NCBI GenBank assembly: GCA_947499725.1
Contig: CANMPK010000001.1
Span: forward strand, 620,001 to 684,000
Source of the DNA: an uncultured Paracoccaceae bacterium
Lineage (GTDB): Bacteria; Pseudomonadota; Alphaproteobacteria; Rhodobacterales; Rhodobacteraceae
Reading direction: 5' to 3'
DNA: 64,000 bases
Shown: positions 33,745 to 36,028 of the stretch, piece after piece
Layout: each line of letters begins with the position of its first letter
Position numbering within the stretch: position 1 is the stretch's first letter
Made by a program: the position numbers and the translations under genes
Notes under the pieces: model-generated
Database searches by the model: none
The model's input: only the letters and a program-made list of their open reading frames with translations
Told to the model about the DNA's origin: nothing

Positions 33745-34095
33745 TTACATGCCTTCGAATTTGATGGATTCTCCGCAGCCGCAGGCTTCACTGACGTTCG
33801 GGTTGTTGAACTTAAAGCTCGCCTCGAGCAGGGAGACTTCGTAGTCGATCTCTGTGCCGAACAGGAACATCTGCGCCATTGGGGCGATCATCACGCGGGC
33901 ACCGTCTTGTTCGACGATTTCATCCGCAGGGTCGGTCTGATCTACATATTCCATGGTGTATTCCATCCCTGCACAGCCGCCTTTCTTGACGCCAATGCGT
34001 AGGCCTTGGTGGCCTTCACGCTCCATCAGCTTCACGATTTGTGATGCGGCTTTTGGAGTAAGGGTAACGGCTTGTTTGCCTGGAATTCCGAACAT
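33745..34095 (-). CDS. A-type Fe-S carrier, IscA/SufA/HesB family
   Basis: The 116-residue protein carries the three cysteines of A-type Fe-S scaffold/carrier proteins: GGCAGMEY (about residue 41) and ACGCGES near the C-terminus. It delivers Fe-S clusters to apoproteins. The length and N-terminus (MFGIPGKQAVTLTPKAASQI) fit the SufA/IscA branch; a second family member (ErpA-like) lies at 55516-55839. A DUF59 gene is nearby (35663). Confidence 0.92.
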   Translation of the reverse strand: MFGIPGKQAVTLTPKAASQIVKLMEREGHQGLRIGVKKGGCAGMEYTMEYVDQTDPADEIVEQDGARVMIAPMAQMFLFGTEIDYEVSLLEASFKFNNPNVSEACGCGESIKFEGM

Positions 34096-34117: not shown

Positions 34118-34849
34118 TTAGGGTTTTGGTAGGGAAATGCCAAGGTCTGGCAGTTGTAACCATAGTAAAACTGTCGCCATGCTGACGAGAATGGCCCAGC
34201 CAAAGGACGCGAGCGTACCGATGATAACATATTCGGAGCGCTTGCGGTTTTCGGCGGTTTCGCCGTCTTTGCTGGTTTCAAAGCGGAGCACGGATTTGGC
34301 AGCCACGAGGAAGCCGATGCCGATGGGCAGGCCGGCAAGGATGAGGATGTAGATCAGTCCGCGTTCCAGAAAGCCGATCATTTGGCCGCCTTGGGGCAGG
34401 CTATCTTGTGAGAATGTATTTCCATACGGGCGCATGAGGATGCCGATGGCAAAGCCGCCTGCGCGGGTGGCGTAGATGGCGCCTGCGATGATCAGCATGA
34501 TGTGAGAGGCCCAGAAGGGGGCATTGGCCCAAAAGCCGGTTTGCCAAACGTCTGGATACAGATAGGCCGCGCTTGTGAGTGTGATCAGGTGGATCAGTTG
34601 ATCGCCAATGTGGGCCTGAATGGTGTTGGGAAGCTGCGCTTTGATGGCGTCTGTGATCAGGTGCAAGGCGGCAATGGCCAGAACGGGTAGGGCGATGGAA
34701 CCGGTGAGCGTGACGAGCGTTACTGTGACGATCAGCCCGTGCAGCAGCAGGTAGAGCGGCTTACCCTTGTTTTGCGCCATCTTATTGGTTTGAAACACGT
34801 AATCCGCCAGCACATGGGCTGTAAAGTAGGCGATAAGGGTTTCAATCAT
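34118..34849 (-). CDS. DUF3307 membrane protein, partner of the SatD-like gene
   Basis: A 243-residue protein of the DUF3307 family, function unknown. It has about six or seven hydrophobic segments. Conserved polar residues lie within or beside them: AHVLADYVFQ (residues 11-20), LLHGLIVTV, HLITDAIKA and GDQLIHLITL. The repeated His/Asp pattern could form a metal or active site in the membrane; this is inference. The start overlaps the upstream SatD-like gene by eight bases, so the two are translated together. Confidence 0.85.
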   Translation of the reverse strand: MIETLIAYFTAHVLADYVFQTNKMAQNKGKPLYLLLHGLIVTVTLVTLTGSIALPVLAIAALHLITDAIKAQLPNTIQAHIGDQLIHLITLTSAAYLYPDVWQTGFWANAPFWASHIMLIIAGAIYATRAGGFAIGILMRPYGNTFSQDSLPQGGQMIGFLERGLIYILILAGLPIGIGFLVAAKSVLRFETSKDGETAENRKRSEYVIIGTLASFGWAILVSMATVLLWLQLPDLGISLPKP

Positions 34850-35492
34850 GAGGTTGGCCTGCGGTTTCTATGCTCGTTAGGGCCAATTCTAGAGCTGGAT
34901 AGCCTGCGGCGTCTAGCGCTTTGGTGACGACTTGGCGGGATTTGCCAAGCTGCTTTGCGATTTCTGTGAGTGAATAGGATTTCTGGGTTTCCAGAGCCAA
35001 ATTGATCGCTTGGGCTTGGGCTGGGGTCCAGTCTTGCGAGATGTGATCTGCGAGGGCGTAGGCTGCGCTTGTTGCGCCGCCTGTGGCGTGGACGATGCGT
35101 CTTGGGGGCGATTTTTCTTGCGAGATGGTTTGCAAAAGCTGGCCTGAGGTGATGAAGGGCTGGCTGACCTCTTGGTTGAGGTCGGTTTTGATGGGCAGAG
35201 CAACCGTTCCTTCGGCACAAGCCATCCGGCTGTCATGGGCTTTGCCCAGCGCGCGCAGGCTTGCGCGCAGGATCAAGCAGATGCGCAGCGCGGTTTTGGG
35301 ATTGTGCAGAACCACTTGCCATCCATCCCCGCGGTGACGGCTGAAATGCAGATCGCCGCCGCTTTCGACAGCAAGATCCGCAGCGCGGCTTCTTAGCGTG
35401 GTGAAGGCGTGATCCAGCGCGGCTTTGCCCAGCGCTGTGGAGGCGACGATGTCTCCGGTTATGATGGCGATTTGCTTTTGGTCTACTGTCAT
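34842..35492 (-). CDS. SatD-family protein: cyclase-like domain plus C-terminal HTH
   Basis: A 216-residue protein of the SatD type. The N-terminal half has ITGDIVAST (Asp14) and SRHRGDGWQVVL (Asp56), a spacing and wording like the metal-binding aspartates of class III nucleotide cyclases. The C-terminus has a helix-turn-helix (YSLTEIAKQLGKSRQVVTKALDAAGY). So it may sense or bind a nucleotide and bind DNA. Start 35492 is the only ATG just after three 30-base-spaced repeats; a longer start at 35729 would translate those repeats. Overlaps the DUF3307 gene by eight bases. Confidence 0.8.
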   Translation of the reverse strand: MTVDQKQIAIITGDIVASTALGKAALDHAFTTLRSRAADLAVESGGDLHFSRHRGDGWQVVLHNPKTALRICLILRASLRALGKAHDSRMACAEGTVALPIKTDLNQEVSQPFITSGQLLQTISQEKSPPRRIVHATGGATSAAYALADHISQDWTPAQAQAINLALETQKSYSLTEIAKQLGKSRQVVTKALDAAGYPALELALTSIETAGQPHD

Positions 35493-35494
35493 GA

Positions 35495-35573
35495 TGCACC
35501 CATAATAGGGTGCTAATTGAGTAATGCAACTAAAAATGGGTGCTTTTTTAGGTTTGCATCTAAAAATGGGTGC
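35495..35573. promoter_or_regulatory. Three 19-base operator-like repeats at exact 30-base spacing
   Basis: Plus-strand words at 35495-35513 (TGCACCCATAATAGGGTGC), 35525-35543 (TGCAACTAAAAATGGGTGC) and 35555-35573 (TGCATCTAAAAATGGGTGC). The second and third differ at one base; the first is a near-perfect palindrome (GCACCC...GGGTGC). The 30-base step is close to three helix turns. They end three bases before the SatD-like start codon and overlap its promoter, so they are probable operators, perhaps for the encoded HTH protein itself. Confidence 0.7.
35502..35529 (-). promoter_or_regulatory. Promoter for the SatD-DUF3307 unit, apparently leaderless
   Basis: On the minus strand TTGCAT (35529-35524) and TATTAT (35507-35502) are 16 bases apart. 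Transcription would start about at the ATG (35492), leaving no room for a leader or ribosome site. The -10 lies inside repeat one and the -35 overlaps repeat two. Confidence 0.55.
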
Positions 35574-35614: not shown

Positions 35615-35640
35615 ACAAAAAAGGCCCCGCGTGGGGGCCT
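35615..35640 (-). terminator. Terminator after the DUF59 gene
   Basis: On the minus strand AGGCCCCC / GGGGCC with an ACGC loop is followed by TTTTTTGTG, 22 bases past the DUF59 stop. Confidence 0.8.
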
Positions 35641-35662: not shown

Positions 35663-36028
35663 TTACATGAAGCCCAATTCGAGGCGGGCCTCGTCGGACA
35701 TCATTTCCATGCCCCATGGTGGCTCCCAAACCAGTTCGACGTCGACGGTTTTCATGCCCGGCACGCCCATGATCGCCTCTTGAACCCAGCCTGGCATTTC
35801 GCCAGCAACAGGGCAGCCTGGGGCTGTGAGGGTCATGATGACTTTGGCTTCGGCTTCGTCGTTGATCAGGATCGTGTAGATCAGGCCAAGGTCATAGATG
35901 TTCACCGGAATTTCCGGATCGAAGACGCTGCGGCATGCTTCGACGGCGGCGTTGAACATGGGGTGGTCAACGTTAGAGGGGGTGATCAGTGGCACGCCTT
36001 CTTCGGTTGGTGTGGAATCCTGTGTCAT
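35663..36028 (-). CDS. DUF59/MIP18-family Fe-S assembly protein
   Basis: A 121-residue protein of the MIP18/SufT family that supports Fe-S cluster maturation. The segment SVFDPEIPVNIYDLGLIYTI (about residues 34-53) and TLTAPGCPVAGEMPGWVQEA (about 66-85, with the conserved Cys) are diagnostic. No other suf genes are in the window apart from two A-type carriers. It has its own terminator. Confidence 0.9.
   Translation of the reverse strand: MTQDSTPTEEGVPLITPSNVDHPMFNAAVEACRSVFDPEIPVNIYDLGLIYTILINDEAEAKVIMTLTAPGCPVAGEMPGWVQEAIMGVPGMKTVDVELVWEPPWGMEMMSDEARLELGFM

Follow-up and report, generated by a model that had tools for sequence, protein, structure and literature searches.

In a stretch of 64,000 nucleotides (nts) from an uncultured Paracoccaceae bacterium (assembly GCA_947499725.1, contig CANMPK010000001.1, positions 620,001 to 684,000 of the forward strand), here called the window and used for all coordinates below, a gene for a SatD-like protein (34842..35492, ATG at 35492) and a gene for a membrane protein (34118..34849) lie on the minus strand behind three copies of a 19-bp repeat. 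We lean towards reading this locus as an autoregulated two-gene module, in which a nucleotide-sensing autorepressor of the cyclase fold is wired to the membrane protein's C-terminal domain. The SatD-like protein, hereafter the regulator, has 216 amino acids (aa), with a class III cyclase-fold domain (approximately residues 5-135, 35088..35480) that carries the metal-site residues D14 and D56, and a C-terminal helix-turn-helix (HTH) domain (approximately residues 155-209, 34866..35030). Its membrane partner, of 243 aa, consists of a DUF3307 domain (residues 5-96, 34562..34837) and an unnamed C-terminal membrane domain (C-domain; approximately residues 150-218, 34196..34402), all on the minus strand. 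A first-pass annotation had described these reading frames, with D14 in the motif ITGDIVAST, D56 in RGDGW and an overlap of 8 bases, and the coordinates were confirmed (overlap at 34842-34849). It had taken the set for a self-regulated, nucleotide-linked membrane system; this interpretation was supported overall, and checks of the fold, of binding by the HTH protein and of the repeats upstream of orthologues, run or approximated, gave no result against it.

The operator array and its recognition

The repeat has the form GCACCC-N9-TGCA, 19 bp in length, and its three copies on the minus strand follow each other with a period of exactly 30. The distal copy (35555..35573) matches this form exactly and is 30 bp from the next copy, the middle one (35525..35543) enters with its 3′ arm a poor -35-like TTGCAT, as judged by eye, and the proximal one (35495..35513) is the dyad GCACCC-TATTAT-GGGTGC, which has a -10-like core and ends 2 nts before the start codon.

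For comparison, loci were collected from related genomes. When 248 sampled genomes of the family were searched with the single sequence, 54 had the regulator; two were doubtful (L061 with no match and L062 with a partial one, E ~1e-3) and were dropped, leaving 52. A scan of named genomes with one peptide pattern gave 266 relatives, and the 80 best were retained (presumably, most of these are genera or bins of Rhodobacteraceae). The 132 loci of both sources came down to 124 unique ones from the window's class. In addition, 60 unique loci from outside the class were used, including one locus of SatD proper (L210, identical with L163).

When we determined the autocorrelation upstream of the 124 window-class loci, z was 23 at a shift of 30, 19 at 29 and 13 at 60. 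The controls at shift 30 gave 6.9 inside the gene, which is explained by codon periodicity giving signal at multiples of 3, and 2.6 further upstream. A detector blind to sequence (spacing 27-33) found tandem dyads in 107/124 loci, with 0/122 and 3/124 in the controls, and in 45 of the 60 outside-class loci, where the spacing was 28 (31 loci) or 29 (14 loci). The same detector found arrays at 0/12 DUF3307 loci without the regulator, with start points placed by eye at or near the DUF3307 match. These results indicate that the three 19-base repeats, 30 bases apart, which the first-pass annotation had pointed out, are beyond chance, and that tandem repeats stand upstream of most orthologues. With a palindromic matrix trained on these loci, at least two operators were found in 110 of the 124; among 197 neighbour spacings 104 were 30 and 82 were 29, and none of 124 control segments inside the gene had two operators (14 had single matches). 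The half-sites drift between loci (GCACCC, GCAACC, GCAGGC, GCAAGC, TCAAGC, GTAACC, ACAATC and TTAGCC), and the spacing is nearly fixed.

The operators had also been called phased. This is right as to their even spacing and not as to one helix face, because 28-30 bp corresponds to about 2.7-2.9 helical turns; helical phasing was rejected since this distance is not a multiple of 10.5. A period of 29 versus 30 as a specificity trait was rejected as well, because it had no clear independent support.

Operators are also found between the two genes. Among 33 loci with a gene gap longer than 25 bp, 25 have at least one further operator before DUF3307, and 17 have at least two. At one locus (L149), the array is absent before the regulator and a strong 29-bp tandem dyad array (ACAGCC) is located before the membrane gene, indicating that regulation can be confined to the partner gene. 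In the whole genome, the paired-repeat pattern with 0 mismatch was found at the array (two overlapping matches) and at C2:91400, and with at most 1 mismatch at 10 and 11 places versus 0 and 1 for the reversed control. A larger regulon in this genome was rejected; weak sites are indistinguishable from G+C-rich chance matches, and no other site was taken as real.

The position of the proximal operator suggests repression. A TATAAT-like hexamer (5 or 6 of 6) lies inside 47/88 proximal operators, taken from loci whose last operator starts at -18 to -22, and inside 13/165 of the other operators of the same loci. If TATTAT of the window is the -10 box, transcription would start within about 3 bases of the start codon and the message would be leaderless.

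We determined which residues of the regulator covary with the half-sites, using 110 window-class loci with at least two matrix operators and 49 of the 60 outside-class loci (score of at least 17 and A at position 3). In these 159 loci, half-site positions 1, 2, 4 and 5 covaried best, among 197 protein columns, with columns 186, 187, 188 and 191. All four belong to the putative recognition helix (residues 186-195, 34908..34937, minus strand), which in the AlphaFold2 (AF2) model of the HTH domain is accompanied by helices 157-166, 175-182 and 198-209. The chance of four top columns in this ten-residue helix is about 7e-6 by a hand calculation that treats the columns as independent, although they are not. 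In the window's class, the top columns were R186 for position 1, V188 for position 4 and K191 for position 5, and C at position 5 matched K/R191 in 110/110 loci; position 2 varies in 5 loci only, with A81 and D194 as top columns, and position 6 points to D87. The outside-class loci alone gave the same columns for positions 1, 2 and 5 and column 185 for position 4, and Q186 was found with A at position 1 in 6/6. In both sets together, C at position 5 went with K/R191 in 147/159 loci, and G at position 1 with R186 in 154/159.

The main caveat on this covariation is shared ancestry. Independent switches were counted on quick trees: for position 5 and column 191 (n = 9), 3.2 were in the same direction, 0 opposite and 5.8 unchanged; for position 1 and column 186 (n = 6), the counts were 3, 0 and 3; and for position 4 and column 188 in the window-class set (n = 4), they were 1.9, 0.1 and 2.0. 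Upstream of 3501 in L121, two distal C-type operators are combined with a promoter-proximal G-type operator, and this mixed array is possibly an operator switch in progress. That the half-site letters track residues of the recognition helix argues that the SatD-like protein very probably binds the repeats. The annotation had expected such binding, and the covariation between helix and half-site supports it at the level of sequence.

The membrane partner and the link to SatD

The membrane partner matched Pfam DUF3307 (PF11750) with 45 bits at a cut-off of 23, and the conserved H12, D16, H37, H63, D67, D83 and H87 of this domain lie in predicted helices. Its AF2 model consists of helices only (pLDDT 94.7), with no structural match in PDB (best E 2.3), and Pfam, NCBIfam and PADLOC gave no cyclic-nucleotide-binding or TIR domain in it. 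Most of its invariant columns sit not in DUF3307 but in the unnamed C-terminal half, where the C-domain has the motif GxxIGxLERxL..AAKSxxRF..EYxxxGTLxS. The two genes are adjacent in 122/124 window-class loci, the remaining two being contig-end cuts, and in 58/60 outside-class loci, so that the co-occurrence of the pair, which the annotation had proposed to check, is borne out.

Which part of the partner goes with the regulator was apparent from three observations. At the SatD-proper loci L163, L166 and L169, the short membrane protein adjoining SatD shares the C-domain with the membrane partner of the window but has no DUF3307 domain. A C-domain profile gave 9 strong matches in 249 genomes, each of them in a genome that encodes SatD or the regulator; 2 more matches, both weak, were in genomes that encode neither. 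Among 159 genomes of the family, 28 have full-length partners (E 7.1e-79 or better) and all of these are regulator-positive, two more regulator-positive ones have partners cut by contig ends, and another 28 show DUF3307-type partial matches only and no regulator match. In one genome (G080, locus L332), the partner is full-length (E 3.4e-57) but no regulator was seen.

The third observation comes from partner residues, counted in 121 window-class partners, 54 outside-class partners and 4 partners without a regulator (L332 and L178-L180). In the latter, ten DUF3307 residues are kept in 4/4 and E162, R163 and K185 are kept as well, whereas S186, R189 and Y207 of the C-domain motif are replaced in 4/4 and E206 in 3/4. 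In the regulator-positive partners, R189 is kept in 174/175 and Y207 in 168/175. The partners of L152 and L160, first noticed by eye, have lost several conserved DUF3307 His/Asp residues and have the C-domain motif intact. Because three SatD loci have the C-domain without DUF3307 and the motif is lost without the regulator, the true partner of the regulator seems to be the C-domain and not DUF3307. The annotation was right in pairing the regulator with this gene and, in naming DUF3307 as the partner, appears to have named the wrong domain. DUF3307 is fused to the C-domain here, and short DUF3307 proteins of regulator-less genomes are without it.

The DUF3307 part also matches the phage families phrog_2470 (a membrane protein of the moron category) and phrog_6676, indicating that DUF3307 itself occurs in phages. 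Carriage of the pair by phages or viruses was rejected, as tblastn gave no match of either protein in phage records; of 59 viral stretches that fit a pattern, none encoded a relative. In the open-access literature DUF3307 was met as the name of the best match of a phage open reading frame, as far as the available part of that text goes (PMC8504454).

The Pfam scan gave no PF16264 (SatD) match to the window protein at E <= 1, and judged from profiles it joins the SatD family only through intermediates. L162, which has a DUF3307 partner, passes both PF16264 (33.9 over 29) and the window-family profile (1.9e-27), and L163 passes them with 42.2 bits and 9e-17. The name SatD-like is therefore justified by way of L162, although the window protein itself has no Pfam SatD score. 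Like the window protein, SatD combines a metal-Asp domain with a C-terminal HTH region; no significant operator array was found at the SatD-proper loci L163 and L166. In 398 genomes of the phylum, the profile search gave 26 matches: 8 strong ones in the family, 12 strong ones outside the class (E <= 1.9e-27), one SatD-type match at 9e-17 and five weak ones, including L166, which is true SatD by Pfam. Within one outside-class family, 60/147 genomes had regulator matches, 7 of them weak, and six plasmid records from Vibrio, Salinivibrio, Pseudoalteromonas and Sphingomonas matched the regulator.

These data bear on the view that the regulator simply represses, in response to a metabolite, an enzyme or transporter of the DUF3307 type, with the cyclase fold as a worn-out ligand pocket. 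Operators are indeed found directly before DUF3307, and its conserved His/Asp set looks enzyme- or transporter-like. However, three SatD-proper loci have a C-domain membrane protein and no DUF3307, the C-domain motif decays and DUF3307 stays intact where the regulator is missing, and the L152 and L160 partners kept the C-domain while losing DUF3307 residues. We consider this explanation unlikely.

The cyclase-like domain

The AF2 model of the regulator has a pLDDT of 96.3. When it was compared with PDB by Foldseek, the best 50 of 796 matches (E <= 10) were all class III or GGDEF cyclases, with a best E of 9.6e-5 and 31 of these 50 at E <= 0.001. A single-sequence search of PDB sequences gave a weak match (E 0.037) to Ma1120, a class III cyclase, and the family profile gave the HTH of the MarR-type ZitR (E 0.001) at the top, followed by Ma1120 (E 0.0017). 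Pfam, NCBIfam, PHROGs and PADLOC gave weak matches only, mostly to HTH. When a profile of six cyclases was aligned with the regulator family by hhalign, the probability was 96% over columns 6-104, and D14 and D56 were paired with the metal aspartates (D24 and D68 of the six cyclases) and R52 with the position of the base-selecting Lys. These six come from other loci, are cyclases by our own reading and were recovered with family profiles, which favours similarity. D14 and D56 are invariant in 52/52 family rows and in 16/16 of a further set. The structure check thus gave the class III fold that had been claimed from the aspartate pattern.

In class III cyclases, an Asn and an Arg act as transition-state residues and a Lys selects the base. 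N123 and R127 are invariant in the six-cyclase alignment; in the regulator family alignment (52 rows) we found no conserved Asn column matching N123, with equivalence judged by eye, and R118 is present in 65% of the rows and replaced by Q in the window protein. The profile alignment to the six cyclases stops before the Asn/Arg region, leaving the second half unaligned. Catalysis is doubtful because the transition-state Asn and Arg are not conserved, and the domain, as far as its residues tell, resembles cyclases in its fold and metal site but is probably no ordinary member of them. The fold and the two metal aspartates are also what suggests the term nucleotide-linked in the annotation; we found no further basis for it.

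The window protein shares with class III cyclases such as Ma1120, Rv1900c and PycC the fold and the first and second metal-aspartate motifs, but it has Arg in place of the Lys, no conserved Asn and no fixed Arg, is fused to a small HTH and has operators in front of its own gene. The mycobacterial proteins Rv0386, Rv1358 and Rv2488c each unite a class III cyclase domain with an HTH; they are large, LuxR-type and multidomain, whereas the window protein has only 216 aa.

Two-gene units of a palm- or cyclase-fold protein and a membrane protein, to which the window pair is alike, are known from Panoptes OptS-OptE (PMC12657218) and Pycsar (PMC11224242), as described in the accessible portions of these papers. 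In contrast to both, no 2TM beta-barrel or cyclic-nucleotide-binding domain was seen in the partner, and the regulator has an HTH and operators; among the best 50 Foldseek matches, it is closest to class III cyclases. No Panoptes-type match (mCpol, S-2TM-beta) was found in the PADLOC library, which dates from 2023, and the partner model is all helices; the defence library gave weak matches only, with E 0.008 and worse.

A Pycsar-like system, in which the cyclic nucleotide made by an active cyclase targets the membrane protein and the HTH does no more than balance the two, would agree with the class III fold, the invariance of both metal aspartates and the fixed pairing with a membrane protein, since in Pycsar the pyrimidine cyclase has a membrane or TIR effector as its counterpart (PMC11224242, in the part available). 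We consider it quite unlikely. There is no conserved column for N123 and R127 of the cyclases, the position of the base-selecting Lys has Arg, PADLOC gave no convincing match, and no nucleotide-binding domain was matched in the partner. Moreover, unlike a defence island, the pair stands between the same two genes at 87 of the roughly 121 window-class loci that could be read.

Weighing of the evidence and proposed mechanism

That another regulator binds the repeats and the HTH protein acts elsewhere is very improbable: some loci have no arrays and the independent switches are few, but the half-site letters covary best with the recognition helix of this very protein, and no array was found at the 12 regulator-less DUF3307 loci. 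Over all these alternatives, we give most weight to an autorepressor whose cyclase fold senses a nucleotide and which is wired to the membrane C-domain.

Several points weigh against this reading. No significant upstream array was found in 17/124 window-class and 15/60 outside-class loci, and a promoter scan of the operator region found no sigma-70 site at its threshold. In the covariation, letters and residues agree incompletely at positions 1 and 5, position 6 covaries best outside the HTH in the combined set, position 2 does so in the window's class alone, and each pair of positions rests on few independent switches. The co-occurrence is partly circular, because 5 of the 9 strong C-domain matches and all 28 full-length partners came from genomes that were the source of the profiles; what is informative in the C-domain counts is that an intact C-domain was seen in none of the genomes without the regulator. 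The regulator-less partner locus L332 starts 386 bp from a contig end. Finally, the outside-class locus L287 has an orphan SatD-like gene (1185-1814) with a significant 28-bp array and no membrane partner, and is followed by a gene which we take to resemble nadC.

The mechanism that we propose begins at the DNA, and this step has good support from sequence. Through its HTH, the SatD-like protein would bind the tandem dyads before its own gene and, in many lineages with non-overlapping genes, also those before the membrane gene, with one dimer per 18-bp dyad and adjacent dimers 28-30 bp apart. Since the proximal dyad covers the -10 of a putative near-leaderless promoter, binding would repress. 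From its fold and invariant residues, the cyclase-fold domain may hold a nucleotide and a divalent metal at D14/D56, probably across the dimer interface, and the state of this ligand would set the affinity for DNA; with the transition-state Asn and Arg not conserved, there may be little or no cyclase activity. A nucleotide link as such is suggested by the fold and the two metal aspartates, on a predicted structure. Co-loss of residues suggests that the membrane C-domain talks to the regulator through S186, R189, E206 and Y207, and it may either dock the regulator at the membrane or respond to its nucleotide. The DUF3307 domain would then be a separable membrane activity.

The neighbouring genes at 33745-34095 and 35663-36028, both on the minus strand, presumably belong to the IscA/HesB-type and DUF59/SufT-type iron-sulphur genes, as their motifs resemble these. 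The ATG of the IscA-like gene is 22 bases past the stop of the membrane gene, and it may share a transcript under the operator array. At the four regulator-less loci L178-L180 and L332, the DUF3307 gene is located beside the same IscA-like gene, and at L178-L180 the second neighbour is present too, on its other side. Apart from the pair itself, the 15 outside-class or SatD loci examined have no neighbour family that recurs at more than 4 of them. A stem-loop that resembles a terminator (35622..35640, minus strand), located between the operators and the gene upstream of them, is not above chance, with 1 found and 0.5 expected in shuffles.

A bolder reading, in which SatD-type proteins act as the restraint within a widespread guard or addiction module, is drawn by analogy and is possible though rather doubtful. 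It is prompted by the decay of the C-domain without the regulator and by the published satD, which is essential in the S. pyogenes strains tested and present in 178/249 complete genomes (PMC11323703, in the part of the text available). Panoptes, in which OptS restrains OptE, is the model for such restraint (PMC12657218, likewise in part). If this were true, the regulator would keep the C-domain harmless by the nucleotide it makes or holds and would also repress its synthesis, and loss of the regulator or the nucleotide would free a harmful membrane activity. This would explain why regulator-less genomes have kept DUF3307 and lost the C-domain motif, and why satD can be essential in the strains tested and still be found in 178 of 249 genomes.

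In the open-access literature, we found no description of the pair and nothing that joins SatD with a nucleotide cyclase and transcription. In the present reading, SatD, DUF3307 and an unnamed membrane domain, each an orphan so far, become parts of one module that recurs in many bacteria. As a transcription factor of the cyclase fold with a readable operator code, the regulator would make tests by specificity swap direct, and the essential but accessory satD of streptococci becomes a testable question, namely, whether the regulator restrains its neighbour.

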